The translations under genes and the position numbers were made by a program. Below are positions 9,675-59,111 of a DNA stretch of 64,000 bases, one piece after another; position 1 is the first letter of the stretch, and every line of letters begins with the position of its first letter. The stretch comes from Mesostigma viride. Lineage: Eukaryota; Streptophyta; Mesostigmatophyceae; Mesostigmatales; Mesostigmataceae. The DNA lies in assembly GCA_009746045.1 (NCBI GenBank), contig RPFO01000648.1, positions 1,038,021 to 1,102,020 of the forward strand, read 5' to 3'. The notes under the pieces were generated by a model. That model saw only the letters and a list, made by a program, of their open reading frames with translations, was not told where the DNA came from and ran no database searches.

Positions 9675-12600
9675 TCACCCCTTCTTGTCCATCGCGATGA
9701 AGAGGGACGCGCTGGCAATGAGAAGCGCTCCCAGTGCACCCAGCAGCGACGGCACCTCGTGCAGGAAGGTGACCCCCAGCAGGTACGTGCCGAGCACCTG
9801 CCAATACAGACAACAGGCATTGGAGTTGGTAGCCATGCATACGTGCGGGTTGGTAGCCATGCAGGTGGTAGATGCGGGTTGGTGGCATGCAGGTAGCACG
9901 TGCAGGTTGGTAGGCATGCATGCAGGAAGGTGACACAAGCAGGCACGTGCCCAGGACCTGCCAATGAAGACCATCAAAATGGTTTTGGTGATGAGCCAAG
10001 CAAAGGGGTGAAGTGGGCAGGGTGGCAGGAACGCAGCCTTGATAAGCGTGGGTGGGTTTGCGTCTAGGCGTGCAGCAACAGTGTGCGGTGGCAGGCACGT
10101 GCCCAGGTACTTGCTGATGATGCAGATGGTTTTGGAGGGTGGCAGGCATGAACTGATACGGCGGGAGGGTTGGTAGGCGTGCCACGACGATGATGTGTCG
10201 GGTGGCATGCACAGGACATGTGGCAAAAACGGGATGCTCTTCACAGGCCAGATGATGGGACGTATCGGACGGGCACATTGCAAGGGCATCTAACAAAGAC
10301 GTGTCCTACAGATGTCGCGTCAACCTGTCCGTCAGGAGGTTTACTTAGGATGCCTTCTGGCTGGGAAAGGTCTGGCTGGAAAAGCTCGAGCAAAATACCT
10401 TGACGTATTGGATGGAGGTCGCGCGCCCAGCCTTCTCCAGCTGGAGGCCGCGGGTGAGGAACACCTGGCCCCAGAACAGGGGGCAGGGAATGAACATAGG
10501 GACGGAACATGGGCATATGAAGCAGGTTTGAGGCTGCGTGTGAGGAGCAGCTGCTGGATATAAGGACAGGGAGGACGAATAGGAACAAGCAATAGAGGAT
10601 GAATAGGAACATACCGAGAGAGGATGAATAGGAAGACACGATAGTGATGAACCATAATCATAGGGGCCATGGAGTAGTCCGCGCGTGAAGAGCACCTGGC
10701 GGAATAGGGGCTGCCCAGCATACCGGGGGCTATGAATAGGACCAACGCCAGGAATAAGGAGCACACATATCGGTCATGAAGAAGGATCTTGATTAGGGCT
10801 TATGAACGGGAACCAAGCATGGGTTCATGATTGCGCGCCACCGTTTGCAGCCATGGGAAGGGGCCAAGAATTAGGGCCATGTCTAGGGATAACCGATGAC
10901 CCCATGCAGTAGTCGAGAGCCAAGGGTCGCAAGAAGGTGCTTCACTGCGTCGCAGTAGCCAAGCATTGTCCACAAAACATTTCCAAGCATCGTCCACAAA
11001 ACATTTCCGAGCATTGACCACAAAACGCTTCCAAGCATCGTCTACAAAACCACTCCAAGACTTGTCCACAAAACTTCTCCAAGCCATCATGGCTGGTTGG
11101 AACAACAAGTGACATGGCAGCAGTAGACCTACTCCTATCGAGTGCGCAGAGTCTGATGTGCTACAAAAGACCTGTGGCCTGGCGGATTGCAGGAAGAGGA
11201 GAAGGATGTAGCAGGGGCTTGACAGAAAGAGATAATGATATACTACAATGCGCATGATAACATTTAAAAAACATGACAGCTGTAAGGGACGCCTTAGCCC
11301 AAGCAAACACTGGGTCGCGGGGCCGAGAATAGCAATACCCCAGCGACAACCACGGGGGCTTACCTGCGCGCAGAAGGCCGTGACGCCCACTCCAATGAGG
11401 CCCAAAATGTCCAGCGGCGTTGGCATCACGAAGTGCTGGCAACGGCCGTGTATGTGGGGGGGCAGGCAACACAGAGAACCATGGTGACCGGGCAAATACA
11501 AGAACGGAGGGCAAAGAACCAGGCTAACGACTAAGCCTGAGGTAAACAAGATACGATGCTGAAATTAGATATGATACGTTGATAAAAGTAGATATGATAC
11601 GTTGATGAGGCATTAGGTGGAAAGCAGACCTGGCCAAGTCATAGGATGCAAGCTCCCCTGTTGGCACGCCAAAGTCAGTCGCATCAACCCTATTCAACAG
11701 ACAATCCCTGGTTTACAAACGTAATGTTTGCAACGGAGTGTGGGTGTGTGGGGCACGATTAGGAGAACAGGGAACACGCGAGGTGTCCACACCCCATCGT
11801 GACCTGCGCGGGGTAGCGACATATCATGTTGCCGGAATCATGCTGGCTAAAGGTGGTGGTGGTATCCGTTGCCCGTGCCCCACACAGCTGTTACCCAAGG
11901 CTCACGCGAGGATGGTCATGGCTGCATGGTCACGGGCGGTGGCTGCATCATCATGGGGATGGCTCTTGGCTGGCTGCCGCCACGCCCCCACATTCTAGGC
12001 ACGGTGATTGACAAAACATCCGCAGCAGGCGGCACGCACGCACGCACCCATAAACCTGCCACTGTGCCATCTAATGGCAGGCACGCACAAAACAACAGCC
12101 ACAGGTATCGATGTGCAAAAGACCGGCATCCGGCATGCAGACAGGCATCCAGCACGCACAATTAGACCGGCATCCGGCACGCACCTGCAGCATGAGCATG
12201 CCCACCACTGAGCAGGGCAATGAGAGGAATGCGAACGCGAAAACGATCACCCTGCAGGGATGCGGGCGCAGGGAGGGGACGGCAGGCAGTGGGAGATCGC
12301 GGAGTTTCCACGCAAGCTACACCAGGTCACGCGAGAGGATGGGCAGAGTTACATGTTTGCCCTCGCAAAGCTGTTAAGAAGGAAGGTGATGGGCAGTGGT
12401 GGAAGGCGATGGGCAGTGGTGGAAGGCGATGGGCAGTGGTGGAAGGCGATGGTGGAAGGTGACGGGCAGTGGTGGAAGGTGACGGGCAGTGGTGGAAGGT
12501 GATGGGCAGTGGTGGAAGGTGATGGGCAGCGGTGGAAGGTGATGGGCAGCGGGAAGGCGATGGGCAGTGGTGATGCAACCAGGGTACGAAATATGGTTGG

Positions 12601-15600
12601 AGTGCCTGTGGTGCCTGAGGTATCGGAAGACAGGCGACCCTTTCGGGCAGCACATGCATCAGAAGGACACAGCCTCAAGACAAAGCACGTGCCAGGGGAG
12701 GCAGGAAGCCTTTCGGTGACATCAGCTTCGGCACGAGCAGTTTCGGTGTATTGTTACTAAAGTACTGTGCACACCGGAAGCTACTGTAGGTCTTAGATGT
12801 ACTTCCTTCAGCTAAAACATGAGGTGACGGCAAAAGCTTGGCGTCCGGCAGACGCTGGTGCCGAGCCACCGCACTGTCGAGCGTTGCTACCGCTTTCTCA
12901 GATGTTAACACTTCCACACCATTGCTGTACTGGTGCTGGCCCATCATGCTGTCCACTGTCGCCATGTCAGTTTGTCATGCTAGACACCATTGTAAAACTA
13001 TCAGTATCCACGGTCACTAGGTATTTGCATTCACGTGTAAAACTATCAGTATCCACGGTCACTAGGTATTTGCATTCACGTGTAAAACTATCAGTATCCA
13101 CGGTCACTAGGTATTTGCATTCACGTGTAAAACTATCAGTATCCACGGTCACCAGGTATTTGCATTCACGTGTAAAACTATCAGTATCCACGGTCACTAG
13201 GTATTTGCATTCACGTGTAAAACTATCAGTATCCACGGTCACTAGGTATTTGCATTCACGTGTAAAACTATCAGTATCCACGGTCACTAGGTATTTGCAT
13301 TCACGTGTAAAACTATCAGTATCCACGGTCACTAGGTATTTGCATTCACGTGTAAAACTATCAGTATCCACGGTCACTAGGTATTTGCATTCACGGTGAC
13401 TGCCACTGCTATGTACTCTAGGTTTGGTAAACAGCAGCTCATGCATCGCAACTAGTGCATGGCGGTACTCCTGTGGGCCTCCTGCCCCACCATTCATGCA
13501 TATTTCACGAATAAAAAGCTCGAGACTACGCATATTCATACAGAAGCTGTTACAACACAAAACTGTCATCCCGATGCGGTGTTGCGGTGCCAGCAAAGAG
13601 AGAACTGTCACGTCACGGTGGGTGCGAGTGCACTCCATGCATTCCACTCTGCTGGGTGCGCTTGATGGATGCCTGTATTGACACTCTGCAGGCGCCCACT
13701 GGTGAACACATTAGGCTGTGAGAAGTTTTTTTGGAACGCGGGTGACCAACATCCCATGCTTGCTCATGCAAAGGGTAGCCAATCCCGATGTCCGAGTCAA
13801 TTTGCCACAAGCTGTCGCACCATAACGCGTAGTGGTCACTATAGCAAGCATGGTGGTCACTATAGAAAGCATGGTGATCCCCACTAGCACACGGTAGCGG
13901 TCACCCTAGCGCTCACAGTAGCGGCCACTCACAGCGCGCCCTGCCATGGGCGTGCACGCGCGTCACACTACAACACACTACACGGCCACTCTAGCGGTCA
14001 CGGCAGCAGCATGCCACTCACAGCGCGCCCTGCCATGGGCGTGCACGCGCGTCACACTACAACACACTACACGGCCACTCGAGCGGTCACGGCAGCAGCA
14101 TGCCACTCACAGCGGGCCCTGCCATGGGCGTGCACGCGCGTCACACTACAACACACTACACGGCCACTCTAGCGGTCACGGCAGCAGCATGCCACTCACA
14201 GCGCGCCCTGCCATGGGCGTGCACGCGCGTCACACTACAACACACTACACGGCCACTCGAGCGGTCACGGCAGCAGCATGCCACTCACAGCGGGCCCTGC
14301 CATGGGCGTGCACGCGCGTCACACTACAACACACTACACGGCCACTCTAGCGGTCACGGCAGCAGCATGCCACTCACAGCGGGCCCTGCCATGGGCGTGC
14401 ACGCGCGTCACACTACAACACACTACACGGCCACTCGAGCGGTCACGGCAGCAGCATGCCACTCACAGCGGGCCCTGCCATGGGCGTGCACGCGCGTCAC
14501 ACTACAACACACTACACGGCCACTCGAGCGGTCACGGCAGCAGCATGCCACTCACAGCGGGCCCTGCCATGGGCGTGCACGCGCGTCACACTACAACACA
14601 CTACACGGCCACTCGAGCGGTCACGGCAGCAGCATGCCACTCACAGCGGGCCCTGCCATGGGCGTGCACGCGCGTCACACTACAACACACTACACGGCCA
14701 CTCTAGCGGTCACGGCAGCAGCATGCCACTCACAGCGGGCCCTGCCATGGGCGTGCACGCGCGTCACACTACAACACACTACACGGCCACTCGAGCGGTC
14801 ACGGCAGCAGCATGCCACTCACAGCGGGCCCTGCCATGGGCGTGCACGCGCGTCAAACTACAACACACTACACGGCCACTCGAGCGGTCACGGCAGCAGC
14901 ATGCCACTCACAGCGGGCCCTGCCATGGGCGTGCACGCGCGTCACACTACAACACACTACACGGACCACTCGAGCGGTCACGGCAGCAGCATGCCACTCA
15001 CAGCGGGCCCTGCCATGGGCGTGCACGCGCGTCACACTACAACACACTACACGGCCACTCGAGCGGTCACGGCAGCAGCATGCCACTCACAGCGGGCCCT
15101 GCCATGGGCGTGCACGCGCGTCACACTACAACACACTACACGGCCACTCGAGCGGTCACGGCAGCAGCATGCCACTCACAGCGGGTCCTCTCCATTAGTG
15201 CCCGCTTTGCGCACAATTACATAGGCCAACCCTCCCAGCAGTGCTCCCATGAGAGCCATGAAGATGGCGAACGCGTCGTACGACTCGTTGTTGGTAGATG
15301 CTGCACCCGCGCCGTCTGTGTAGGGTTAGGGAGGGGGCATGCCGCATAAGAGGTTGCTGTAATGGGTGTTTTTATAATGGGTGCAACTGGTTGGTGGTGG
15401 ACACCGCACCCGCGCCATTTGTTGAGGGGCACACACAGACAGTGGGCATGACAAGTCACTTTAATGGATGATTATTATAATGGATACGAATCGTTGTTGG
15501 TGGACCCGACTGCGCGGTGCAGAGAGGGGGGCAGAGTGGACAAAGGGTCACTATAAGGGGGCGCTATTAAAGTGCGTAAGACTTGATTGGCGGGAGCTAC

Positions 15601-18600
15601 AGGGGCACGGGCATGAGCGGGGCAGCACCCGCCAGCTGGCATGATAAGTCACTGTTATCGTCACACGGCACAACAAGTCACAGTCATAGTCCTATAGTCA
15701 CTGTTATGGTCACATGGCACAACAAGTCACAGTCATAGTCCTATAGTCAATGTTATCGTCACATGGCACAACAAGTCACAGTCATAGTCCTATAGTCACT
15801 GTTATGGTCACATGGCACAACAAGTCAAAGTCACAGTCCTAACGGCTAGAACTTCTCTGTTCTGGTTCATGGGCGGACAAATCCTTGGCCATACGCAAGC
15901 GATGGCAGATTGCGCACACTGCTACCGTAGAGGACTTGCTGCCAGCCACATCGTACAACATGGTCTGTGGCCATCCACCACACAGCGCCCTCGCAGGGCC
16001 TGCGCTTGCTGCCACCCACCACAGGTATACGCCTTCCTTTACTACACCCACACAACGTCTGCGCCCACGTACCGCTGGCGCCGGGGCCAAATATCATCGC
16101 TGGCTGCGTGACGAGAAGTACGCCCATGAAGCCGCAAAACGTGCCTGTTGGGCGCAGCGCCATGCGTGCAATACATGAACAGAATGTGTTATTATGATGA
16201 GGCACCAAGGCATGGGGCAACAAAACGTGCCTGTTGGGCGCAGCGTCATGCATGCGATGTATGCGCATGATGTGGTGGGCACAAGAGCATCTGATAGGAA
16301 CAAGAGCATGTGGGGCATCTGCAGTCCATTTCCTAAACACACGCGCAAAAACCACTCCATGTAACCACCCACCCGCCATCTCTCTCGCCCCCCACTTCTC
16401 CTTGAGGAAGACGCTTGCGAGCATTGCCGTGAATATTGGGCTCGTGAAGTTGAGCACCGTCGCGTCCCGCAGAGGCAGCGCTTGGATGCTGGCGCGATGG
16501 CATTAATGGATAAGCGCGACGATATAAGGGCGCAGATATAAGGGAGCAGATATAAGGGCATAGCGCGCAGATATAAGGGAGCAGATATAAGGACATAGCG
16601 CGCAAATATAAGGGAGCAGATATAAGGGCATAGCGCGCAGATATAAGGGAGCAGATATGGGCATATCACGCAGATATAAGGGCGCAGATATAAGGGAGCA
16701 GGTATAAGGGCATATCACGCAGATATAAGGGAGCAGGTATAAGGGCATAGCGCGCAGATGTAAGGGCGCAGATATAAGGGAGCAGATATAAGGGCATAGC
16801 ACGCAGATATAAGGGAGCAGATATAAGGGCATAGCGCGCAGATATAAGGGAGCAGATATAAGGGAGCAGGTATAAGGGCATATCACGCAGATATAAGGGA
16901 GCAGATATAAGGGCATAGCGCGCAGATATAAGGGACCAGATATAAGGGCTTAGCGCGCAGATATAAGGGACCAGATATAAGGGCATATCACGCAGATATA
17001 AGGGAGCAGATATAAGGGCATAGCGCACAGATATAAGGGAGCAGATATAAGGGCATATCACGCAGATGTAAGGGCGCAGATATAAGGGCATAGCGCGCAG
17101 ATGTAAGGGCGTAGATATAAGATAGCAGATATGAGGGACCAGATATAAGGGCATAGCGCGCAGATATAAGGGAGCAGATATAAGGGCATAGCGCGCAGAT
17201 ATAAGGGAGCAGGGAGGTGGGCAAGGGAAGACGTTCAGAGCACGTGCAGGGTTAATGCAGCATCTAGGCACATGACTTGGATGCTGGCGCACAGGACGAT
17301 CCGTTCAGGGAAGGCAACAGAAGAACTGCTGTTGAGGCCACACGCATGGTTCATCCAGCAACGTTTCGTCCGGCAGAGGCAATGCTGGGATGTTGGTGAG
17401 GAACACGTGCCACTGATCGAGAGAGGAAACAGAACAAGCCAAGAAGCACACGACAGAGACCGCTATGCGGATGCAGAGACGAAGTAGAAGCGAGATACCT
17501 GCAGGGGTTGTGCCGGTGAGCGCGGCTGGCCTGCAGGCAAGCACATCGGTTGTGACTAGAACTTTCTCTGGACAGGAAATGTGCGACAAGGTAACAGCCA
17601 GCCCGCTAAATTACCTGTAGAAGAAGCAGATGCCCAGTATTCTACCATTAACTAATTAACCCACAACCCCCTATTCTGCCATAGGCCCAATATATTTTGT
17701 TATGCTACTGGCAACGGTAACACATAGCCCGCCGCTCTCAAGCCGCCTTACTTATAGAGGAAGCAGAGGACTGCTAACTAGCAGTGAGGCAATACTATAG
17801 AAGAGCGCTATGTGTGTACCCACACCTGTAGAATGCGCGGAAGAGTGCTCGGCAGAGACCCACACCATTTCGCCTAGGAGAGTGCTATAAATGCACCCCT
17901 ATCTGTAGAAGAAGCGGGAGAGTGCGAAGAAGCCGATGGAGCTGACGGAGCGTGCCATGGCGAGGGAGCGGTTCTATACATGTACCCCTACCGGTGGACG
18001 ACGCGAGGGCGGGAGCATACCTGTAGAAGAAGCAGGAGAGTGCGAAGAAGCCGATGACGGAGCGCCACATGACAAGGGAGCGGTTCTGTGGCTGGCCCAG
18101 CAAGGGGTAACCGTCGCGCAGGAGGCTGCCGCCGGCCAGCAGGGAGATGACGGAGGAACGGATGGCGACCGTCTCAAAGGACGGGATGTCGTTCACTGTA
18201 TTGCGGCAATATAGTGGACGGACGGGGATGTGGCCACAGAAGATGCATGGGATGTGCATAGTAGTTGCACGGGTGGGCGGTGGTGTGGCAGGACGCAGGC
18301 AGGGGGGAGAGAGGGGAGAGGAGATTGTGGAGGAGCGGGTAAGAAAAGGGACGTCATTCAGTGGCGCACGCAAAACGAATGGGCAGGGGGGTGGGGTGGG
18401 CAAATGCAGGCAGAAGGGAGAGGGCTGAGCGGTGGTGGTGGAGAAGTGGGCAAAGGGGAGGGAAGGGCCTGTAAACAGGTGACGGATGAATGGACCATCG
18501 GGTCTAGTTGATATGGGTGGTTGCTTAATCGTTAATTTGATCATTTATTTATTATTGGTGGGTGAGATATTGATTTGGCAGGTTGGTTGGTTGGTTGGTT

Positions 18601-20067
18601 GGTTGGTTGGTTGGTTGGTTGGTTGGTTGGTTGGTTGGTTGGTTGGTTGGTTGGTTGGTTGGTTGGTTGGTTGGTTGGTTGGTTGGTTGGTTGGTTGGTT
18701 GGTTGGTTGGTTGGTTGGTTGGTTGGTTGGTAGGTAGGTAGGTAGGTAGGTAGGTAGGTAGGTAGGTAGGTAGGTAGGTAGGTAGGTAGGTAGGTAGGTA
18801 GGTAGGTAGGTAGGTAGGTAGGTAGGTAGGTAGGTAGGTAGGTAGGTAGGTAGGTAGGTAGGTAGGTAGGTAGGTAGGTAGGTAGGTAGGTAGGTAGGTA
18901 GGTAGGTAGGTAGGTAGGTAGGTAGGTAGGTAGGTTGGTTGGTTGGTTAGTTGGGTGCGTGGGTGGTTGGGTGGTTAGGTGGGTAGATGCGTGTCTCCAT
19001 TGTTCAGTCTATGATGCCACACGCACATGAGATAAGCAGGACCTACCTGGTGGCCAGACCGACTACAAGAGACGACAGCAGAAAAAAGACATGCTATTGG
19101 CAAGTCTACTTTGCAAATGGGTGCGCCAGCACTAAGGCAACAGAGAAAGCCCCGCTCATAATGTTGAGCAATAGACCGGTTGTACTGATTTAATGGGCAT
19201 GTTTAATGAAGGCGGAAGGAAATAATTTGTGACCTTGGCTGCAATAAAAATAATTATGTGAGGTATGATGACTGCATAGCACTCCCAAACATGAGATCAG
19301 AGCAAGACAACCCCACAGCAGGGAAGCTCAATTAGCAGAGAGATCATCTAGACAGGCATAAGCAAAAATCGACCTGCACGGCTAGCGCAGAGATCTGCCA
19401 GTACGAACCACGTGATCAACCCCTTCGGGCGGTGTCCTCAAATGGCAGGTTGTTGCAGACAATCTAAATCGTGCTGGCACAATGCAGACACATAAATTCA
19501 AATAGAATCTCGGTAAAGGCATGCTGCATGCGGGTACGCCCCTGCCAGGTTTACGGCAAAGCTGTGAGCGCCAGTAGCGCACCGCCTGGAGGACGAGCAC
19601 TAGCGGCTGCAGGCATCCTTGTGGATCGAAGCCACACGCGTTGGGCTATCAAAGGGCAATCGACATGATGCCTGTGTATGCATGGAGATGGAATAAAAAG
19701 ATGCACTAGCCTCCATCGCCGAGGTGAGAGGGGTCGGCGATAAGACATAATGCCGACCGCACTTCAATCAGGAAGGCATTCCGAAACGACCTCACATTGG
19801 AGTCTCACCTGCAAGGATTTTCACGAATAGCCCCATGAAGCTGTATGACAGGGAGGACAACGCCATCAACGTCACGCCAGCATATGGCGAGGCTCCAGTC
19901 CAGTAGCTTCCTAGCACCCTGGCCCCAAATCCGTGTGTCTCCCTCTCCTTTGCTTGCTTTGCCAATCGAGCGCTTTCCCTGCCATGATGGTCGTCACGGC
20001 CAAGCAATGGCTTCGACTCTTTAGGAGAGACGCTTGCGCCCTCCTCTAACTTGTCAGCATCTGCCAT
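9675..20067 (-). CDS. EamA/DMT-superfamily transporter (SLC35G-like), nine exons
   Basis: Exons in transcript order: 20067-19809, 18195-18021, 16488-16373, 16144-16073, 15315-15180, 12251-12185, 11435-11364, 10464-10399, 9797-9675. All introns are GT-AG and all phases agree, giving 361 residues. The frame before the ATG at 20067 is open to 20139 without an ATG. About 60 hydrophilic N-terminal residues precede ten hydrophobic helices arranged as two EamA halves. Family hallmarks are [11 protein letters not shown] after helix 1, [18 protein letters not shown] around helix 4, [10 protein letters not shown] (helix 5), [19 protein letters not shown] (helices 8-9) and [16 protein letters not shown] (helix 10). 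SLC35G-like and plant/algal DMT carriers move small organic solutes across membranes; the substrate is unknown. Weakest point: the exon 4 acceptor, where I chose CAG at 16147-16145. The introns are full of copies of the gene's own exon ends. Confidence 0.85.
9800..10360 (-). repeat. Copies of transporter exon 9 acceptor end in intron 8
   Basis: The exon 9 start (9797 downward, GTGCTCGGCACGTACCTGCT) recurs as diverged copies with the CAG before it, at about 9960-9907 (GTCCTGGGCACGTGCCTGCT) and 10105-10084. Between them are GGTTGGTAGCCATGCA-type short repeats. Confidence 0.7.
10530..10720 (-). repeat. Copies of transporter exon 8 acceptor end in intron 7
   Basis: Exon 8 begins after CCAG with GTGTTCCTCACCCGCGGCCT. 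Similar segments lie at about 10712-10680 (CCAG then GTGCTCTTCACGCGCGGACT, still reading VLFTRGL) and about 10557-10527 (CTGCTCCTCACACGCAGCCT, reading LLLTRSL). Confidence 0.75.
10960..11090. repeat. Short tandem repeat in transporter intron 7
   Basis: Five diverged copies of a unit of about 28 bp containing CCACAAAACATTTCCAAGCA. Confidence 0.8.
12100..12184 (-). repeat. Copies of transporter exon 6 donor in intron 6
   Basis: The intron starts GTGCGTGCCGGATGCCGGTC at 12184. Related copies follow further into the intron at about 12158 (GTGCGTGCTGGATGCCTGTC) and 12138 (GCATGCCGGATGCCGGTC). Confidence 0.6.
12385..12570. repeat. Minisatellite of 18-21 bp in transporter intron 5
   Basis: About nine copies of GGTGGAAGGTGATGGGCAGT with small variations. 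Confidence 0.85.
12992..13396. repeat. 45-bp minisatellite x9 in transporter intron 5
   Basis: The unit contains GTAAAACTATCAGTATCCAC and GGTCACTAGGTATTTGCATT. Nine nearly identical copies, with one CACCAGG variant near 13152. The period is a multiple of three, so it leaves long artefactual frames open. Confidence 0.95.
13922..15185 (-). repeat. 89-bp minisatellite x14 carrying the exon 5 splice donor
   Basis: The unit repeats every 89 bp up to the 3' edge of transporter exon 5. On the gene's strand the exon ends GACCCGCT followed by GTGAGTGGCATGC, and the copies read GGCCCGCT followed by GTGAGTGGCATGC. Each unit therefore holds a few exon bases and a consensus-quality donor. Copies differ at CTCGAG/CTCTAG and GCGGGC/GCGCGC; one unit (around 14964) has an extra base. 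Confidence 0.93.
15640..15840. repeat. About 51-bp tandem repeat in transporter intron 4
   Basis: Four copies containing CACAACAAGTCACAGTCATA at about 15668, 15718, 15768 and 15819. Confidence 0.85.
16128..16240 (-). repeat. Duplicate of exon 4 acceptor in transporter intron 3
   Basis: CCCAACAGGCACGTTTTG, which spans the chosen exon 4 acceptor (16150-16133), is repeated at 16237-16219 without the downstream exon body. Confidence 0.7.
16505..17215. repeat. AGATATAAGGG minisatellite in transporter intron 2
   Basis: About 40 copies of AGATATAAGGG, alternating with GAGC, CGC and CATAGCGCGC linkers in a 14/21-bp mixture. It begins next to the exon 3 acceptor. Confidence 0.93.
17275..17400 (-). 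repeat. Decayed copies of exon 3 acceptor end in transporter intron 2
   Basis: GCGCCAGCATCCAAG, identical to the exon 3 acceptor junction (16495-16481), recurs at 17289-17275. A longer diverged copy (CAGCATTGCCTCTGCCGGAC) lies at about 17384-17365. Confidence 0.65.
17615..18000 (-). repeat. Tandem decayed copies of exon 2 donor end in transporter intron 2
   Basis: The exon 2 end reads TTCGCACTCTCC then TGCTTCTTCTACAG and GT. Copies lie at about 17985-17903 (reads NRSLAMARS ... [11 protein letters not shown]), about 17840 and about 17624 (CATCTGCTTCTTCTACAG then GTAA). Confidence 0.75.
18581..18730. repeat. (GGTT)n array in transporter intron 1
   Basis: About 37 units, running directly into (GGTA)n. 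Confidence 0.96.
18731..18934. repeat. (GGTA)n array in transporter intron 1
   Basis: About 51 perfect units, then a return to GGTT (18935-18950). Confidence 0.96.
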
Positions 20068-33238: not shown

Positions 33239-33270
<32 letters not shown>

Positions 33271-42610: not shown

Positions 42611-43080
42611 GGTGAGAGAGGGTTCGGGGAGGGTGGGTGTACGGCTTGAGAGGGGGGGAGCTGTTCTTGTCTTAGGGGAGTGGAGCAAGGAAGAGAAAGG
42701 GGGGCGGAGCGTAACAACGCTCATGTGATACACCAGCAAAAGGAGAGCAGGGGGGGGGGGGCTGGGGAGAGGGGGGGGAAAGACAGAACATATTTGTGTG
42801 TGGTGGCCCGTGGCCATGTTCCTTGTGGCCTGGATGCCATTCATATGATGATGCCGCCAGCAGTGGTTCCTGCAGTGCAGCACACGGTGCAGCATCATGT
42901 AGCGGACATCTGCTAGAGATATCTCGTAAACCGATATCCCTGCCGTAAGTATGTCCCTTAACATTCCTATGCCACCTGGCATTCCATGGAGAGTGATATC
43001 CAGCTCGCACGATTTCTGCACCCCATGTTGGGGCCTTACCTGCCCCCCCGCCTCCCCACCCCACCCCTGGTGCCCCACAG

Positions 43081-46000: not shown

Positions 46001-49000
46001 TATTATTATCTGATCCCTCATGCCTGGTCAAGTGTTTTTTATTATTATCTGATCCCTCATGCCTGGTCAAGTGTTTTTTATTATTATCTGATCCCTCATG
46101 CCTGGTCATGTGTTTTTTATTATTATCTGATCCCTCATGCCTGGTCAAGTGTTTTTTATTATTATCTGATCCCTCATGCCTGGTCATGTGTTTTTTATTA
46201 TTATCTGATCCCTCATGCCTGGTCAAGTGTTTTTTATTATTATCTGATCCCTCATGCCTGGTCAAGTGTTTTTTATTATTATCTGATCCCTCATGCCTGG
46301 TCAAGTGTTTTTTATTATTATCTGATCCCTCATGCCTGGTCATGTGTTTTTTATTATTATCTGATCCCTCATGCCTGGTCATGTGTTTTTTATTATTATC
46401 TGATCCCTCATGCCTGGTCAAGTGTTTTTTATTATTATCTGATCCCTCATGCCTGGTCAAGTGTTTTTTATTATTATCTGATCCCTCATGCCTGGTCAAG
46501 TGTTTTTTATTATTATCTGATCCCTCATGCCTGGTCAAGTGTTTTTTATTATTATCTGATCCCTCATGCCTGGTCATGTGTTTTTTATTATTATCTGATC
46601 CCTCATGCCTGGTCATGTGTTTTTTATTATTATCTGATCCCTCATGCCTGGTCATGTGTTTTTATTATTATCTGATCCCTCATGCCTGGTCAAGTGTTTT
46701 TTATTATTATCTGATCCCTCATGCCTGGTCATGTGTTTTTTATTATTATCTGATCCCTCATGCCTGGTCAAGTGTTTTTTATTATTATCTGATCCCTCAT
46801 GCCTGGTCATGTGTTTTTTATTATTATCTGATCCCTCATGCCTGGTCATGTGTTTTTATTATTATCTGATCCCTCATGCCTGGTCAAGTGTTTTTTATTA
46901 TTATCTGATCCCTCATGCCTGGTCATGTGTTTTTTATTATTATCTGATCCCTCATGCCTGGTCAAGTGTTTTTTATTATTATCTGATCCCTCATGCCTGG
47001 TCAAGTGTTTTTTATTATTATCTGATCCCTCATGCCTGGTCATGTGTTTTTTATTATTATCTGATCCCTCATGCCTGGTCAAGTGTTTTTTATTATTATC
47101 TGATCCCTCATGCCTGGTCATGTGTTTTTTATTATTATCTGATCCCTCATGCCTGGTCAAGTGTTTTTTATTATTATCTGATCCCTCATGCCTGGTCAAG
47201 TGTTTTTTATTATTATCTGATCCCTCATGCCTGGTCATGTGTTTTTTATTATTATCTGATCCCTCATGCCTGGTCAAGTGTTTTTATTATTATCTGATCC
47301 CTCATGCCTGGTCAAGTGTTTTTTATTATTATCTGATCCCTCATGCCTGGTCAAGTGTTTTTTATTATTATCTGATCCCTCATGCCTGGTCAAGTGTTTT
47401 TTATTATTATCTGATCCCTCATGCCTGGTCATGTGTTTTTTATTATTATCTGATCCCTCATGCCTGGTCAAGTGTTTTTTATTATTATCTGATCCCTCAT
47501 GCCTGGTCAAGTGTTTTTTATTATTATCTGATCCCTCATGCCTGGTCAAGTGTTTTTTATTATTATCTGATCCCTCATGCCTGGTCAAGTGTTTTTTATT
47601 ATTATCTGATCCCTCATGCCTGGTCAAGTGTTTTTTATTATTATCTGATCCCTCATGCCTGGTCAAGTGTTTTTTATTATTATCTGATCCCTCATGCCTG
47701 GTCATGTGTTTTTTATTATTATCTGATCCCTCATGCCTGGTCATGTGTTTTTTATTATTATCTGATCCCTCATGCCTGGTCAAGTGTTTTTTATTATTAT
47801 CTGATCCCTCATGCCTGGTCAAGTGTTTTTTATTATTATCTGATCCCTCATGCCTGGTCAAGTGTTTTTTATTATTATCTGATCCCTCATGCCTGGTCAT
47901 GTGTTTTTTATTATTATCTGATCCCTCATGCCTGGTCAAGTGTTTTTTATTATTATCTGATCCCTCATGCCTGGTCAAGTGTTTTTTATTATTATCTGAT
48001 CCCTCATGCCTGGTCATGTGTTTTTTATTATTATCTGATCCCTCATGCCTGGTCATGTGTTTTTTATTATTATCTGATCCCTCATGCCTGGTCAAGTGTT
48101 TTTTATTATTATCTGATCCCTCATGCCTGGTCATGTGTTTTTTATTATTATCTGATCCCTCATGCCTGGTCAAGTGTTTTTTATTATTATCTGATCCCTC
48201 ATGCCTGGTCATGTGTTTTTTATTATTATCTGATCCCTCATGCCTGGTCAAGTGTTTTTTATTATTATCTGATCCCTCATGCCTGGTCAAGTGTTTTTTA
48301 TTATTATCTGATCCCTCATGCCTGGTCATGTGTTTTTTATTATTATCTGATCCCTCATGCCTGGTCAAGTGTTTTTTATTATTATCTGATCCCTCATGCC
48401 TGGTCAAGTGTTTTTTATTATTATCTGATCCCTCATGCCTGGTCAAGTGTTTTTTATTATTATCTGATCCCTCATGCCTGGTCAAGTGTTTTTTATTATT
48501 ATCTGATCCCTCATGCCTGGTCAAGTGTTTTTTATTATTATCTGATCCCTCATGCCTGGTCAAGTGTTTTTTATTATTATCTGATCCCTCATGCCTGGTC
48601 AAGTGTTTTTTATTATTATCTGATCCCTCATGCCTGGTCATGTGTTTTTTATTATTATCTGATCCCTCATGCCTGGTCAAGTGTTTTTTATTATTATCTG
48701 ATCCCTCATGCCTGGTCAAGTGTTTTTTATTATTATCTGATCCCTCATGCCTGGTCAAGTGTTTTTTATTATTATCTGATCCCTCATGCCTGGTCAAGTG
48801 TTTTTTATTATTATCTGATCCCTCATGCCTGGTCAAGTGTTTTTTATTATTATCTGATCCCTCATGCCTGGTCAAGTGTTTTTTATTATTATCTGATCCC
48901 TCATGCCTGGTCATGTGTTTTTTATTATTATCTGATCCCTCATGCCTGGTCAAGTGTTTTTTATTATTATCTGATCCCTCATGCCTGGTCAAGTGTTTTT

Positions 49001-52000
49001 TATTATTATCTGATCCCTCATGCCTGGTCAAGTGTTTTTTATTATTATCTGATCCCTCATGCCTGGTCAAGTGTTTTTTATTATTATCTGATCCCTCATG
49101 CCTGGTCATGTGTTTTTTATTATTATCTGATCCCTCATGCCTGGTCAAGTGTTTTTTATTATTATCTGATCCCTCATGCCTGGTCAAGTGTTTTTTATTA
49201 TTATCTGATCCCTCATGCCTGGTCAAGTGTTTTTTATTATTATCTGATCCCTCATGCCTGGTCAAGTGTTTTTTATTATTATCTGATCCCTCATGCCTGG
49301 TCAAGTGTTTTTTATTATTATCTGATCCCTCATGCCTGGTCAAGTGTTTTTTATTATTATCTGATCCCTCATGCCTGGTCAAGTGTTTTTTATTATTATC
49401 TGATCCCTCATGCCTGGTCAAGTGTTTTTTATTATTATCTGATCCCTCATGCCTGGTCAAGTGTTTTTTATTATTATCTGATCCCTCATGCCTGGTCAAG
49501 TGTTTTTTATTATTATCTGATCCCTCATGCCTGGTCAAGTGTTTTTTATTATTATCTGATCCCTCATGCCTGGTCAAGTGTTTTTTATTATTATCTGATC
49601 CCTCATGCCTGGTCAAGTGTTTTTTATTATTATCTGATCCCTCATGCCTGGTCAAGTGTTTTTTATTATTATCTGATCCCTCATGCCTGGTCAAGTGTTT
49701 TTTATTATTATCTGATCCCTCATGCCTGGTCAAGTGTTTTTTATTATTATCTGATCCCTCATGCCTGGTCAAGTGTTTTTTATTATTATCTGATCCCTCA
49801 TGCCTGGTCAAGTGTTTTTTATTATTATCTGATCCCTCATGCCTGGTCAAGTGTTTTTTATTATTATCTGATCCCTCATGCCTGGTCAAGTGTTTTTTAT
49901 TATTATCTGATCCCTCATGCCTGGTCAAGTGTTTTTTATTATTATCTGATCCCTCATGCCTGGTCAAGTGTTTTTTATTATTATCTGATCCCTCATGCCT
50001 GGTCAAGTGTTTTTTATTATTATCTGATCCCTCATGCCTGGTCAAGTGTTTTTTATTATTATCTGATCCCTCATGCCTGGTCAAGTGTTTTTTATTATTA
50101 TCTGATCCCTCATGCCTGGTCAAGTGTTTTTTATTATTATCTGATCCCTCATGCCTGGTCAAGTGTTTTTTATTATTATCTGATCCCTCATGCCTGGTCA
50201 AGTGTTTTTTATTATTATCTGATCCCTCATGCCTGGTCATGTGTTTTTTATTATTATCTGATCCCTCATGCCTGGTCAAGTGTTTTTTATTATTATCTGA
50301 TCCCTCATGCCTGGTCAAGTGTTTTTTATTATTATCTGATCCCTCATGCCTGGTCAAGTGTTTTTTATTATTATCTGATCCCTCATGCCTGGTCAAGTGT
50401 TTTTTATTATTATCTGATCCCTCATGCCTGGTCATGTGTTTTTTATTATTATCTGATCCCTCATGCCTGGTCAAGTGTTTTTTATTATTATCTGATCCCT
50501 CATGCCTGGTCAAGTGTTTTTTATTATTATCTGATCCCTCATGCCTGGTCAAGTGTTTTTTATTATTATCTGATCCCTCATGCCTGGTCAAGTGTTTTTT
50601 ATTATTATCTGATCCCTCATGCCTGGTCAAGTGTTTTTTATTATTATCTGATCCCTCATGCCTGGTCAAGTGTTTTTTATTATTATCTGATCCCTCATGC
50701 CTGGTCAAGTGTTTTTTATTATTATCTGATCCCTCATGCCTGGTCAAGTGTTTTTTATTATTATCTGATCCCTCATGCCTGGTCAAGTGTTTTTTATTAT
50801 TATCTGATCCCTCATGCCTGGTCAAGTGTTTTTTATTATTATCTGATCCCTCATGCCTGGTCAAGTGTTTTTTATTATTATCTGATCCCTCATGCCTGGT
50901 CAAGTGTTTTTTATTATTATCTGATCCCTCATGCCTGGTCAAGTGTTTTTTATTATTATCTGATCCCTCATGCCTGGTCAAGTGTTTTTTATTATTATCT
51001 GATCCCTCATGCCTGGTCATGTGTTTTTTATTATTATCTGATCCCTCATGCCTGGTCAAGTGTTTTTTATTATTATCTGATCCCTCATGCCTGGTCAAGT
51101 GTTTTTTATTATTATCTGATCCCTCATGCCTGGTCAAGTGTTTTTTATTATTATCTGATCCCTCATGCCTGGTCAAGTGTTTTTTATTATTATCTGATCC
51201 CTCATGCCTGGTCAAGTGTTTTTTATTATTATCTGATCCCTCATGCCTGGTCAAGTGTTTTTTATTATTATCTGATCCCTCATGCCTGGTCAAGTGTTTT
51301 TTATTATTATCTGATCCCTCATGCCTGGTCAAGTGTTTTTTATTATTATCTGATCCCTCATGCCTGGTCAAGTGTTTTTTATTATTATCTGATCCCTCAT
51401 GCCTGGTCAAGTGTTTTTTATTATTATCTGATCCCTCATGCCTGGTCAAGTGTTTTTTATTATTATCTGATCCCTCATGCCTGGTCAAGTGTTTTTTATT
51501 ATTATCTGATCCCTCATGCCTGGTCAAGTGTTTTTTATTATTATCTGATCCCTCATGCCTGGTCAAGTGTTTTTTATTATTATCTGATCCCTCATGCCTG
51601 GTCAAGTGTTTTTTATTATTATCTGATCCCTCATGCCTGGTCAAGTGTTTTTTATTATTATCTGATCCCTCATGCCTGGTCAAGTGTTTTTTATTATTAT
51701 CTGATCCCTCATGCCTGGTCAAGTGTTTTTTATTATTATCTGATCCCTCATGCCTGGTCAAGTGTTTTTTATTATTATCTGATCCCTCATGCCTGGTCAA
51801 GTGTTTTTTATTATTATCTGATCCCTCATGCCTGGTCAAGTGTTTTTTATTATTATCTGATCCCTCATGCCTGGTCAAGTGTTTTTTATTATTATCTGAT
51901 CCCTCATGCCTGGTCAAGTGTTTTTTATTATTATCTGATCCCTCATGCCTGGTCAAGTGTTTTTTATTATTATCTGATCCCTCATGCCTGGTCAAGTGTT

Positions 52001-55000
52001 TTTTATTATTATCTGATCCCTCATGCCTGGTCAAGTGTTTTTTATTATTATCTGATCCCTCATGCCTGGTCAAGTGTTTTTTATTATTATCTGATCCCTC
52101 ATGCCTGGTCAAGTGTTTTTTATTATTATCTGATCCCTCATGCCTGGTCAAGTGTTTTTTATTATTATCTGATCCCTCATGCCTGGTCAAGTGTTTTTTA
52201 TTATTATCTGATCCCTCATGCCTGGTCAAGTGTTTTTTATTATTATCTGATCCCTCATGCCTGGTCAAGTGTTTTTTATTATTATCTGATCCCTCATGCC
52301 TGGTCAAGTGTTTTTTATTATTATCTGATCCCTCATGCCTGGTCAAGTGTTTTTTATTATTATCTGATCCCTCATGCCTGGTCAAGTGTTTTTTATTATT
52401 ATCTGATCCCTCATGCCTGGTCAAGTGTTTTTTATTATTATCTGATCCCTCATGCCTGGTCAAGTGTTTTTTATTATTATCTGATCCCTCATGCCTGGTC
52501 AAGTGTTTTTTATTATTATCTGATCCCTCATGCCTGGTCAAGTGTTTTTTATTATTATCTGATCCCTCATGCCTGGTCAAGTGTTTTTTATTATTATCTG
52601 ATCCCTCATGCCTGGTCAAGTGTTTTTTATTATTATCTGATCCCTCATGCCTGGTCAAGTGTTTTTTATTATTATCTGATCCCTCATGCCTGGTCAAGTG
52701 TTTTTTATTATTATCTGATCCCTCATGCCTGGTCAAGTGTTTTTTATTATTATCTGATCCCTCATGCCTGGTCAAGTGTTTTTTATTATTATCTGATCCC
52801 TCATGCCTGGTCAAGTGTTTTTTATTATTATCTGATCCCTCATGCCTGGTCAAGTGTTTTTTATTATTATCTGATCCCTCATGCCTGGTCAAGTGTTTTT
52901 TATTATTATCTGATCCCTCATGCCTGGTCAAGTGTTTTTTATTATTATCTGATCCCTCATGCCTGGTCAAGTGTTTTTTATTATTATCTGATCCCTCATG
53001 CCTGGTCAAGTGTTTTTTATTATTATCTGATCCCTCATGCCTGGTCAAGTGTTTTTTATTATTATCTGATCCCTCATGCCTGGTCAAGTGTTTTTTATTA
53101 TTATCTGATCCCTCATGCCTGGTCAAGTGTTTTTTATTATTATCTGATCCCTCATGCCTGGTCAAGTGTTTTTTATTATTATCTGATCCCTCATGCCTGG
53201 TCAAGTGTTTTTTATTATTATCTGATCCCTCATGCCTGGTCAAGTGTTTTTTATTATTATCTGATCCCTCATGCCTGGTCAAGTGTTTTTTATTATTATC
53301 TGATCCCTCATGCCTGGTCAAGTGTTTTTTATTATTATCTGATCCCTCATGCCTGGTCAAGTGTTTTTTATTATTATCTGATCCCTCATGCCTGGTCATG
53401 TGTTTTTTATTATTATCTGATCCCTCATGCCTGGTCAAGTGTTTTTTATTATTATCTGATCCCTCATGCCTGGTCAAGTGTTTTTTATTATTATCTGATC
53501 CCTCATGCCTGGTCAAGTGTTTTTTATTATTATCTGATCCCTCATGCCTGGTCAAGTGTTTTTTATTATTATCTGATCCCTCATGCCTGGTCAAGTGTTT
53601 TTTATTATTATCTGATCCCTCATGCCTGGTCAAGTGTTTTTTATTATTATCTGATCCCTCATGCCTGGTCAAGTGTTTTTTATTATTATCTGATCCCTCA
53701 TGCCTGGTCAAGTGTTTTTTATTATTATCTGATCCCTCATGCCTGGTCAAGTGTTTTTTATTATTATCTGATCCCTCATGCCTGGTCAAGTGTTTTTTAT
53801 TATTATCTGATCCCTCATGCCTGGTCATGTGTTTTTTATTATTATCTGATCCCTCATGCCTGGTCAAGTGTTTTTTATTATTATCTGATCCCTCATGCCT
53901 GGTCAAGTGTTTTTTATTATTATCTGATCCCTCATGCCTGGTCAAGTGTTTTTTATTATTATCTGATCCCTCATGCCTGGTCAAGTGTTTTTTATTATTA
54001 TCTGATCCCTCATGCCTGGTCAAGTGTTTTTTATTATTATCTGATCCCTCATGCCTGGTCAAGTGTTTTTTATTATTATCTGATCCCTCATGCCTGGTCA
54101 AGTGTTTTTTATTATTATCTGATCCCTCATGCCTGGTCAAGTGTTTTTTATTATTATCTGATCCCTCATGCCTGGTCAAGTGTTTTTTATTATTATCTGA
54201 TCCCTCATGCCTGGTCATGTGTTTTTTATTATTATCTGATCCCTCATGCCTGGTCAAGTGTTTTTTATTATTATCTGATCCCTCATGCCTGGTCATGTGT
54301 TTTTTATTATTATCTGATCCCTCATGCCTGGTCAAGTGTTTTTTATTATTATCTGATCCCTCATGCCTGGTCAAGTGTTTTTTATTATTATCTGATCCCT
54401 CATGCCTGGTCAAGTGTTTTTTATTATTATCTGATCCCTCATGCCTGGTCATGTGTTTTTTATTATTATCTGATCCCTCATGCCTGGTCATGTGTTTTTA
54501 TTATTATCTGATCCCTCATGCCTGGTCATGTGTTTTTTATTATTATCTGATCCCTCATGCCTGGTCAAGTGTTTTTTATTATTATCTGATCCCTCATGCC
54601 TGGTCAAGTGTTTTTTATTATTATCTGATCCCTCATGCCTGGTCATGTGTTTTTTATTATTATCTGATCCCTCATGCCTGGTCAAGTGTTTTTTATTATT
54701 ATCTGATCCCTCATGCCTGGTCATGTGTTTTTATTATTATCTGATCCCTCATGCCTGGTCAAGTGTTTTTTATTATTATCTGATCCCTCATGCCTGGTCA
54801 TGTGTTTTTTATTATTATCTGATCCCTCATGCCTGGTCATGTGTTTTTTATTATTATCTGATCCCTCATGCCTGGTCATGTGTTTTTTATTATTATCTGA
54901 TCCCTCATGCCTGGTCAAGTGTTTTTTATTATTATCTGATCCCTCATGCCTGGTCAAGTGTTTTTTATTATTATCTGATCCCTCATGCCTGGTCAAGTGT

Positions 55001-57525
55001 TTTTTATTATTATCTGATCCCTCATGCCTGGTCAAGTGTTTTTTATTATTATCTGATCCCTCATGCCTGGTCATGTGTTTTTTATTATTATCTGATCCCT
55101 CATGCCTGGTCATGTGTTTTTTATTATTATCTGATCCCTCATGCCTGGTCAAGTGTTTTTTATTATTATCTGATCCCTCATGCCTGGTCAAGTGTTTTTT
55201 ATTATTATCTGATCCCTCATGCCTGGTCAAGTGTTTTTTATTATTATCTGATCCCTCATGCCTGGTCAAGTGTTTTTTATTATTATCTGATCCCTCATGC
55301 CTGGTCAAGTGTTTTTTATTATTATCTGATCCCTCATGCCTGGTCAAGTGTTTTTTATTATTATCTGATCCCTCATGCCTGGTCAAGTGTTTTTTATTAT
55401 TATCTGATCCCTCATGCCTGGTCAAGTGTTTTTTATTATTATCTGATCCCTCATGCCTGGTCAAGTGTTTTTTATTATTATCTGATCCCTCATGCCTGGT
55501 CATGTGTTTTTTATTATTATCTGATCCCTCATGCCTGGTCAAGTGTTTTTTATTATTATCTGATCCCTCATGCCTGGTCATGTGTTTTTTATTATTATCT
55601 GATCCCTCATGCCTGGTCATGTGTTTTTTATTATTATCTGATCCCTCATGCCTGGTCATGTGTTTTTTATTATTATCTGATCCCTCATGCCTGGTCATGT
55701 GTTTTTTATTATTATCTGATCCCTCATGCCTGGTCAAGTGTTTTTTATTATTATCTGATCCCTCATGCCTGGTCATGTGTTTTTTATTATTATCTGATCC
55801 CTCATGCCTGGTCAAGTGTTTTTTATTATTATCTGATCCCTCATGCCTGGTCAAGTGTTTTTTATTATTATCTGATCCCTCATGCCTGGTCAAGTGTTTT
55901 TTATTATTATCTGATCCCTCATGCCTGGTCAAGTGTTTTTTATTATTATCTGATCCCTCATGCCTGGTCAAGTGTTTTTTATTATTATCTGATCCCTCAT
56001 GCCTGGTCAAGTGTTTTTTATTATTATCTGATCCCTCATGCCTGGTCATGTGTTTTTTATTATTATCTGATCCCTCATGCCTGGTCAAGTGTTTTTTATT
56101 ATTATCTGATCCCTCATGCCTGGTCAAGTGTTTTTTATTATTATCTGATCCCTCATGCCTGGTCAAGTGTTTTTTATTATTATCTGATCCCTCATGCCTG
56201 GTCATGTGTTTTTTATTATTATCTGATCCCTCATGCCTGGTCAAGTGTTTTTTATTATTATCTGATCCCTCATGCCTGGTCAAGTGTTTTTCATTATTAT
56301 CTGATCCCTCATGCCTGGTCAAGTGTTTTTCATTATTATCTGATCCCTCATGCCTGGTCAAGTGTTTTTTATTATTATCTGATCCCTCATGCCTGGTCAA
56401 GTGTTTTTTATTATTATCTGATCCCTCATGCCTGGTCATGTGTTTTTTATTATTATCTGATCCCTCATGCCTGGTCAAGTGTTTTTTATTATTATCTGAT
56501 CCCTCATGCCTGGTCAAGTGTTTTTTATTATTATCTGATCCCTCATGCCTGGTCATGTGTTTTTTATTATTATCTGATCCCTCATGCCTGGTCAAGTGTT
56601 TTTTATTATTATCTGATCCCTCATGCCTGGTCAAGTGTTTTTTATTATTATCTGATCCCTCATGTCTGGTCAAGTGTTTTTTATTATTATCTGATCCCTC
56701 ATGCCTGGTCAAGTGTTTTTTATTATTATCTGATCCCTCATGCCTGGTCATGTGTTTTTTATTATTATCTGATCCCTCATGCCTGGTCAAGTGTTTTTCA
56801 TTATTATCTGATCCCTCATGCCTGGTCAAGTGTTTTTTATTATTATCTGATCCCTCATGCCTGGTCAAGTGTTTTTCATTATTATCTGATCCCTCATGTC
56901 TGGTCCCTCATGCCTGGTCGCTCATGTCTGTTCGGACGTGTCTGTTCGGTCATGTCTGGTGAAACATGCCTGGTGGGACATGCCATGGGCCCCTCCCCCC
57001 CCACCACACAGCCCAAGTTGAGTACGTCATCTCTGTCAAGACTGGCAGCAAGCGGGGCGCCGGCACCAACGCGCGGGTAAGCATGCGCCCCTTGTGTGGC
57101 AAGTCTTAGTATATAGCTGTGCCAGTGCCAACGGGAGGGTAAGGCCCAGTGTCAGTGTTATCATTCATGATCGCCAGGGTATGGCCTGCCCCCTTGGCGA
57201 AGGTGTTTGGCTGACGTATAGATGCCTTGGTAAGGATGTTTGGCTACAGATCTTCATGGCCACACTGACAGCATTCCCTTGATGATGTGGTGGTTGCTTT
57301 GTTGTGGCGCCACCAGGGCCTACGTGGAGCTGTCGGGCTATAATGAACCTGTGCAGCATCCCTTTGTTGTGGTTGTTGTTGCCAGGCCTACGTGGAGCTA
57401 TTCGGCTACAACAACACGAGCACCGGGCGGCTGTGGGTGGTGTCGGCGCGGGGCCAGTTTGAGCGCAACGACTTGGACGAGTTCTCGATGACCGCGACGA
57501 ATGTGGGCGCGATCAAGGTGCTGAG
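43081..57525 (+). CDS. PLAT-domain gene, three exons visible, continues beyond
   Basis: Exons 43081-43445, 57012-57076 and 57386-57525 join in phase (1, then 0) with GT-AG borders. The first exon reads helical (GSLAEALKMAARELRAILNT, EVLIKQAAEISGAG), then Pro- and Thr-rich. The next two give the N-terminal half of a PLAT/LH2 beta-sandwich: VEYVISVKTGSKRGAGTNAR, then AYVELFGYNN, TSTGRLWV, FERNDLDEFSM, VGAIKVLR. The G-A-G-T-N/D-A and F-x-R-x-x-x-D-x-F positions are family hallmarks. PLAT domains bind membranes or proteins. The rest of the domain must lie after 57525 (phase 2) and was not found before the second retroelement. The 43081 exon needs a phase-2 donor, which the upstream gene does not offer without a frameshift, so whether it is the same gene as 20940-42176 is open. 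The 13.6-kb intron is mostly satellite. Confidence 0.6.
43446..44227. other. Start of the giant intron, no exon seen
   Basis: Contains four 25-bp repeats of TAAGATGCGTGCCCAGTCCC type (43978-44075). The open frame of the 43081 exon runs on to a TAA at 43486 if not spliced. Confidence 0.45.
44228..56905. repeat. 39-bp satellite, about 325 tandem copies (12.7 kb)
   Basis: Two subfamilies. The left edge (44228 to about 45105, about 22 copies) has units with CTCATGCCTGGTCATGTGTT, TTTCATCAGTGTCGTGCCG. The rest has CTCATGCCTGGTCAAGTGTT, TTTTATTATTATCTGATCC. A CATGTG/CAAGTG change alternates near both edges but is almost fixed to CAAGTG in the middle. Seven units lack one T (near 45337, 45650, 46663, 46857, 47285, 54498, 54732), and a few near the right end carry TTTTTCATT. 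Since 39 is a multiple of three, frames of up to 2,557 codons stay open; these are not genes. Confidence 0.97.
56889..56990. repeat. 14-bp degenerate repeats at the satellite's right edge
   Basis: Seven units such as CCCTCATGTCTGGT, CCCTCATGCCTGGT, CGCTCATGTCTGTT, CGGTCATGTCTGGT follow the last 39-bp unit. They look like the first third of the satellite unit. Confidence 0.75.
57305..57350 (+). repeat. Copy of the 57386 PLAT exon acceptor end
   Basis: CCACCAG then GGCCTACGTGGAGCTGTCGG, GCTATAATGAA copies GTTGCCAG then GCCTACGTGGAGCTATTCGG, CTACAACAA of the true exon. Confidence 0.9.
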
Positions 57526-57579
57526 GTGAGCAGGGGAAAATTGGATGGGAATTTTTAGTTACTAGGGTGGGGGAAGATA

Positions 57580-57720
57580 TGCCAATGTGGGGGCGATCAA
57601 GGTGCACAGGTCAGCGGGGGAAGTGTGTATGGATATGTGGATTTGGGGGTTGATTATAGGGTCAAAGGGTGGGGGGAGATATGCCAGTGTAGGGGCGATC
57701 AAAAAGCAGGTCTGGTGCGT
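57580..57720 (+). repeat. Two copies of the 57386-57525 PLAT exon donor end
   Basis: The exon end AATGTGGGCGCGATCAAGGT, GCTGAG plus GTGAGCAGGGG is repeated at 57584-57620 (AATGTGGGGGCGATCAAGGT, GCACAG plus GTCAGCGGGGG) and 57683-57715 (AGTGTAGGGGCGATCAAAAA, GCAG plus GTCTGG). Confidence 0.9.
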
Positions 57721-58992: not shown

Positions 58993-59111
58993 AATAGGAG
59001 CCGTGCGAGGGTTGCACTCCGAATCTAGAAATTATTCCCTATTGCGAGACTCGAGTTGGGGAGGGCGTCTTAGGGAGGCGAGGCTGCGCCAGACCTTTGT
59101 CGTTCCTTTTC
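58993..59111 (+). repeat. Element repeat A, first copy
   Basis: 119 bp shared with 63882-64000; the true length may be greater since the window ends. Ends in a pyrimidine-rich TTCCTTTTCGTCTCAG (to 59117) that could act as a splice acceptor before the Gag frame. Confidence 0.85.

Follow-up and report, generated by a model that had tools for sequence, protein, structure and literature searches.

Tandem duplication of exon-intron boundaries is known from amphioxus, where such "mirages" have been described in the Adh, globin, troponin C and PGBD5 genes (PMC3087553, PMC3902484). According to the parts of these reports considered here, mirages consist of minisatellite-like units that cross exon-intron boundaries at both the 5' and the 3' side. 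We find the same anatomy in the streptophyte alga Mesostigma viride, in a stretch of 64,000 nucleotides (contig RPFO01000648.1, positions 1,038,021 to 1,102,020; hereafter the window) where the introns of two oppositely oriented genes, an EamA transporter and a longer gene with a PLAT domain, contain copies of their own splice junctions. Mirage units measure 10-72 bp in Adh3 and 150-160 bp in the globins, the range in Mesostigma is similar, and in both systems many but not all copies carry splice signals. Splicing is reported, from RT-PCR, to be regular for mirages and presumed to be so in Mesostigma. Mirages were described gene by gene in lancelets; in Mesostigma, genes chosen without regard to the finding have junction copies at both donors (24/70) and acceptors (11/71), and the alga adds a measured excess at donors, the purging of copies from exons and a neutral decay of the copies.

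Other systems share single traits with this one. In the potato RdRp gene, an intron was gained by a tandem duplication across an intron-exon boundary (PMC4974935, as excerpted), and although the duplicated segments carry splice sites in both organisms, the polarity in Mesostigma is that of growth of existing introns. Introner elements (PMC9860276) have a rapid growth of intron content in common with Mesostigma but insert copies into many genes, whereas no Mesostigma intron (0/70) matched an intron of another gene at an E-value of 1e-5 and junctions matched other introns in just 40 of 3864 comparisons; the text of that paper contains no mention of Mesostigma, streptophyte or tandem terms. A study of direct repeats around intron borders (PMC11782384) compares, in the sections available, the 5' with the 3' border of one intron, while the borders in Mesostigma are repeated within the intron, each on its own side. 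The Mesostigma genome paper (PMC6947507) reports 441.8 Mb and a mean intron length of 1142 bp; the passages considered leave junction copies unmentioned and the stem "splic" is absent from its main text as available. Likewise, a literature search on Mesostigma or splice-site duplication, whose coverage excluded most subscription journals, found no such report among the papers listed. New compared with these precedents are the lineage, the rate in unbiased genes, the excess at donors and the neutrality of the decoys.

For the window, each junction (up to 60 exon and 15 intron bases) was compared by alignment with as much as 3 kb of the intron adjoining it, with 100 dinucleotide shuffles as control and with microsatellites, a giant repeat array and retroelements masked. 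Twenty-two of the 46 junctions outscored all 100 shuffles, and 18 of those matches crossed the splice site, while the reverse complements of the same junctions reached a score of 26 in two cases and never exceeded it. The observation of junction copies, first made in a preliminary description of this DNA, is thus confirmed. All 13 acceptors listed there (exons beginning at 23771, 25946, 26710, 28201, 28774, 30156, 33094, 40265 and 57386, and transporter exons 3, 4, 8 and 9) have copies, the weakest being that of exon 28201 with a score of 26. Nine donors had been listed, and six of them (25431, 28878, 31720, 57525 and transporter exons 2 and 5) have site-crossing matches; at 33238 and 42176 the exon part is matched and the splice site remains uncrossed, and the donor of transporter exon 6 is marginal, as its match comprises intron bases only and its score was reached by 2 of 100 shuffles. 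Two further copies, at the acceptor of transporter exon 5 and at donor 30992, were absent from that list. With a score of at least 26 within 1 kb, copies were found at 23 of 47 window junctions; among control tiles they occurred in 2 of 55 from exon interiors and in 70 of 459 from intergenic DNA, and window junctions matched other introns at this score in 12 of 1780 comparisons.

Junction copying is not private to the window. The unbiased sample comprised genes of the chaperonin (PF00118) and kinesin motor (PF00225) families. Among the chaperonins, 22 introns lay between contiguous profile matches and another 47 junctions were placed by a splice-site matrix, without a second anchor or a control of their own; among the kinesins, 25 introns were located, with 122 of 252 search candidates scored. 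The sample excludes a haplotype copy of a chaperonin region (C1641), contiguous pairs lacking a good intron (1/24 for chaperonin, 4/29 for kinesin), the kinesin pairs of seven chosen regions and one kinesin pair whose intron approaches 8 kb. PDB alignments gave no help in completing the chaperonin gene models. Junction copies were present at 9 of 44 and, for the matrix-placed set, 11 of 47 chaperonin junctions and at 15 of 50 kinesin junctions (35/141 in total), with site-crossing matches of score 26 or more at 8/44, 9/47 and 13/50, respectively. Reverse-complemented junctions never reached this score (0/44 and 0/50), exon interiors of kinesins gave no match (0/166), and matches to other introns were rare in both chaperonins (17/1560) and kinesins (23/2304). 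The copies are hence in direct orientation and local, and they occur in unrelated genes elsewhere in the genome, which upholds the preliminary description in part. About one third of the sampled introns contain tandem copies of their own donor junction. As a separate observation, the assembly also holds an intronless Cpn60-like frame of 554 aa (L002), perhaps organelle or bacterial sequence.

The two sides of the intron differ when repeats are counted intron by intron. A detector of ungapped direct repeats at distances of 8-1000 bp was applied to all introns. In the unbiased set of 47, it found families spanning 14 donors and 3 acceptors, next to 31 interior families in 35.4 kb; to describe such introns as made of copies of their junctions therefore overstates the case. 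At the donor, a copy deeper in the intron has a probability of 0.32 (bootstrap 0.19-0.47), compared to 0.07 at the acceptor and 0.02-0.10 at positions 150-600 bp into the intron. Per intron, donor coverage is 0.322 versus 0.069 for the interior (sign-flip P 0.0001), acceptor coverage of 0.072 does not differ from an interior value of 0.107, and 15 of 47 donors are covered compared to 3 of 47 acceptors (Fisher P 0.003). Acceptor duplication above background is therefore not upheld in unbiased genes. Junctions are far richer in copies than exon interiors or other introns, yet they exceed intron interiors at donors only, in the unbiased genes and counted per intron; this way of counting reverses the tile-based impression that junctions are no richer than interiors for donors and keeps it for acceptors. 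The donor result is stable at thresholds from 26 to 44, with donor values going from 0.36 to 0.18 and length-weighted interior values from 0.13 to 0.10. In simulations with uniform tandem duplication, purging within exons, survival across junctions and slower decay of exons, analysed with the same detector, the ratio of junction to interior coverage was 0.6-1.4. Expressed as R, the junction match rate divided by the number of interior families per kb, donors reach 0.34 versus 0.03-0.05 simulated, and acceptors 0.07 versus 0.05-0.06. The donor junction is thus a hot spot of duplication in these 47 introns, beyond the simulated neutral model.

The anatomy of the copies was analysed for the window and both families together. 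Periods range from 38 to 205 bp at donors and from 84 to 231 bp at acceptors, with one of 795 bp, and show no bias towards multiples of three (6/21 donors, 5/12 acceptors), for which reason selection on the reading frame of the copies was rejected. Donor matches have a median of 21 exon and 10 intron bases, as would be expected if the original stays conserved on its exon side while its intron parts drift. In 19 of 28 junctions with multiple copies the nearest copy is also the best, where chance would give 10.3 (with ties assigned to the nearest), in keeping with growth at the junction. The duplicates leave decoy splice sites, as originally claimed. These retain their GT in 62 of 73 donor copies (61.7 predicted from identity) and their AG in 20 of 24 acceptor copies (17.4 predicted), or, per junction, 0.80 versus 0.80 at 19 donor junctions and 0.83 versus 0.74 at 16 acceptor junctions. 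Splice dinucleotides in the copies therefore decay neutrally, and selection against decoys was rejected. Scored with the matrix, the best copy is no weaker than the true site at 16 of the 22 donors and at 10 of the 13 acceptors, yet the outermost sites are used in the Mesvir1 model of the transporter, the one gene with an independent model (possibly itself a prediction). Decoys are hence not removed, and a choice of the outermost site must rest on something beyond matrix strength.

Polarity and haplotypes bear on how the copies came about. In the 70 introns compared (window plus both families, masked as above), copies of the upstream exon end lie within the first 300 bp in 20 introns and copies of the downstream exon start within the last 300 bp in 10, whereas the crosswise arrangement was found at a score of at least 26 in 1 and 2 introns only. 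Two haplotypes of a chaperonin region, L032 (contig C1641) and L033 (C887), are 1.9% divergent over 9.55 kb aligned and show length differences from tandem duplication, of 43 and 18 bp as read from the alignment and of 16, 7 and 7 bp besides. Such differences between haplotypes imply recent duplication. Four insertions of 1.4 to 3.1 kb were also seen between these haplotypes, among 15 indels not classed as tandem.

The best reading of these data, to which we give a probability of about 0.7, is an ongoing tandem duplication that is purged from exons and accompanied by an excess at donors. Short segments of non-coding DNA in Mesostigma would often be duplicated in tandem. A duplication wholly within a coding exon would alter the protein and be eliminated by selection, while one that spans a junction could survive, as the protein stays intact if the outermost site (the 5'-most donor or the 3'-most acceptor) is still used, which we infer for most genes. 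The extra copy would then become intronic and decay neutrally, sometimes after expansion into an array, so that introns would lengthen both at their edges and inside. This suggests that introns lengthen from their edges while retaining spare splice sites. Selection accounts for clean exons and surviving junction copies and leaves the excess of donors over the neutral interior unexplained. Two candidate causes were rejected: composition, given the negative results for other introns and reverse complements, and the GT motif, given that only 2 of 34 strong same-strand GT motifs inside introns were covered. The GC skew is +0.28 at the intron start (+6 to +50) versus -0.36 at 20-60 bases before the acceptor, and G-rich intron starts could favour breaks, perhaps creating a mutational hot spot there. 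At acceptors, an excess may be lacking because a second AG close to the branch point would be harmful.

Plants make small tandem duplications from adjacent nicks. In mammalian cells, small tandem duplications arise by end joining of breaks with overhangs (PMC8355091, as far as excerpted). We tentatively propose, as a possibility rather than an expectation, that the 5' splice site is in itself a hot spot of mutation in this genome: breakage linked to transcription or splicing would occur where the intron begins, and its repair would leave the donor junction copied in tandem. If true, introns would grow as a conveyor from the donor end, with the newest copy beside the exon and older, decayed copies further inward, and intron length would be set partly by splicing and not by transposons alone.

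Several observations weigh against the best reading given above. The unbiased sample is small and covers two gene families only. Intron-interior tiles are repeated as richly as junctions (213/507 in the window, a measure heavily weighted by arrays there, 54/369 in chaperonins and 94/415 in kinesins), and with a length-weighted interior value of 0.113 the donor excess shrinks to 2.8-fold instead of 4.7-fold. Of 38 donor-like motifs on the opposite strand, 11 were covered (in 4 of 20 introns), and donors with and without copies are not clearly separated by GC skew (P 0.17) or G fraction (P 0.06). Within the window, where 11 of 23 acceptors and 6 of 23 donors are covered, donors (0.29) are not clearly above the interior (0.15-0.28) and acceptors (0.46 versus 0.10-0.33) show an excess that is the reverse of the unbiased genes; we give the window less weight because it was chosen since a reader saw copies there. 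The haplotype comparison spans only about 9.5 kb, and of its 19 non-microsatellite indels of at least 6 bp only 4 satisfy the automatic tandem criterion, the 18-bp duplication being among the 15 that fail.

Part of this evidence would be expected if minisatellites and short tandem duplications were spread uniformly over non-coding DNA and the junction copies were just the edge that exon constraint keeps legible. The repeated interior tiles, the low acceptor value (0.07 versus 0.11 for the interior) and the agreement of the acceptor R with the simulations all fit such a background, but the donor values do not, neither in R nor per intron, and they keep their distance from the interior over the whole range of thresholds. 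We therefore regard ordinary background as an unlikely explanation of the full pattern. Less probable still is that the arrays represent coding variation, with some copies used as alternative donors or acceptors. Decoys that match or surpass the true sites would allow this, as would an open reading frame at 31412-32812 that spans all 12 units of an 81-bp array, although the periods are unbiased towards multiples of three, an 89-bp array in the transporter would shift the frame, and the Mesvir1 model, prediction or not, keeps to the outermost sites.

The copies might also be relics of intron birth by duplication of an exonic AGGT segment (the Rogers model), for which the potato intron, created by a tandem duplication across an intron-exon boundary (PMC4974935, as excerpted), is a precedent. 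This model predicts the downstream exon copy at the start of the intron and the upstream one at its end, a polarity met in 3 of 140 tests compared to 30 of 140 for growth, and the copies contain intron sequence; intron gain, which the preliminary description had brought up as a proposed outcome of such duplications, is thus not borne out here and is very improbable as their origin. Finally, arrays of near-identical units assemble poorly and their copy numbers may be off, but an assembly artefact is hardly credible as the source of copies that are in many cases diverged and that show the same pattern on many contigs in genes unrelated to one another. The 439.9 Mb of the assembly are also near the 441.8 Mb reported from PacBio, Illumina and optical-map data (PMC6947507, in the parts available).

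Under the preferred reading of ongoing, exon-purged duplication with a donor excess, the legible donor-junction copies in a sizeable share of introns are a record of intron growth, which, apart from transposon insertion, has in our judgement been little measured. Copies as strong as the real sites are natural tests of splice-site choice, and the donor excess, if confirmed genome-wide, would suggest that a process coupled to the 5' splice site breaks DNA. As junction duplication was a first step to a new intron in potato (PMC4974935, as excerpted), Mesostigma is also a place to look for that step under way.

The two genes of the window differ in how firmly their exons are placed (Table 1). The transporter was spliced by hand into nine exons with GT-AG at 8 of 8 introns; its product of 361 aa has an EamA domain match and is identical over 100% of its length to jgi/Mesvir1/23732 (eukprot). 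The second gene was modelled as 16 exons (A-P) with consistent phases, encoding 1019 aa without a stop and ending in a PLAT domain in exons O-P; its coiled-coil-like character is a judgement by eye. Protein database searches found no relative of it, and its exons were consequently placed by reading frame and splice sites alone, exon M now ending at 42172 instead of 42176. A Pfam scan (threshold 0.001) gave nothing for some exons of the second gene, for transporter exon 1 taken alone or for the retroelement frames. Exon 1 of the transporter and exon I of the second gene each match the window locus only, and thus no second copy or haplotype of the window was found in the 439.9 Mb assembly.

Table 1. 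Gene models, repeat arrays and junction copies in the window (positions of the 64,000-nucleotide stretch)
Feature	Position	Strand	Basis or remark
EamA transporter gene, 9 exons	9675..20067	-	splicing, domain, identity to jgi/Mesvir1/23732
Transporter exons 1-5	20067-19809, 18195-18021, 16488-16373, 16144-16073, 15315-15180	-	
Transporter exons 6-9	12251-12185, 11435-11364, 10464-10399, 9797-9675	-	
Coiled-coil-like + PLAT gene (second gene)	23771..57525	+	frame, splice sites, PLAT; modelled incomplete at both ends
Second gene exons A-E	23771-23918, 25277-25431, 25946-26068, 26710-26881, 28201-28310	+	
Second gene exons F-J	28774-28878, 30156-30352, 30737-30992, 31454-31720, 33094-33238	+	
Second gene exons K-P	40265-40405, 40975-41157, 41707-42172, 43081-43466, 57012-57076, 57386-57525	+	
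89-bp x 14.2 array	13924..15189	-	starts with final 10 bases of transporter exon 5 plus donor site
81-bp x 12.0 array	31702..32674	+	starts with final 19 bases of exon I plus donor site; in-frame open throughout
101-bp x 2.4 array	28850..29088	+	exon F donor junction
Exon B donor junction copy	25455..25502	+	decayed, GT lost; coordinates read from sequence
Transporter exon 2 donor junction copy	17900..17974	-	two more, lower-scoring, inward; read from sequence
Exon P donor junction copy	57580..57620	+	coordinates read from sequence
Exon H donor junction copy	31150..31179	+	not in preliminary description; read from sequence
Exon A acceptor junction copy	23612..23643	+	coordinates read from sequence
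Exon C acceptor junction copy	25847..25869	+	coordinates read from sequence
Exon D acceptor junction copy	26584..26648	+	56/66 identical; coordinates read from sequence
Exon F acceptor-side copy	28665..28705	+	coordinates read from sequence
Exon G acceptor junction copy	30018..30045	+	coordinates read from sequence
Exon J acceptor junction copy	32970..33015	+	40/46 identical; coordinates read from sequence
Exon K acceptor junction copy	40130..40175	+	coordinates read from sequence
Exon P acceptor junction copy	57313..57345	+	coordinates read from sequence
Transporter exon 4 acceptor junction copy	16221..16245	-	25/25 identical; read from sequence
Transporter exon 9 acceptor junction copy	9912..9973	-	44/52 identical; read from sequence

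Other repeats contribute to the non-coding part of the window. The region of the 81-bp array (31412-32812) is open in two frames over its 12 units, and splicing from an inner donor would hence extend the protein by repeats of 27 residues. The giant array, a 39-bp unit repeated about 325 times over 12.7 kb (44223-56905), takes up the greater part of the N-O intron, and just before it lies a 26-bp x 3.9 array (43976-44076). Two stretches with long open frames, one inside the J-K intron (34400-39750) and one past exon P (58800-64000), are retroelement-like and, by eye, resemble DIRS-type elements with a tyrosine recombinase. Five of their frames were scanned, with a single weak match, to Phage_integrase (E 0.0023), in the second stretch, and a retroelement frame had no match among plasmids. 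Long tetranucleotide arrays, e.g. GGGA x 188, GTGG x 133 and AGGT x 92, occupy parts of 2337-7110 and 18580-18947.

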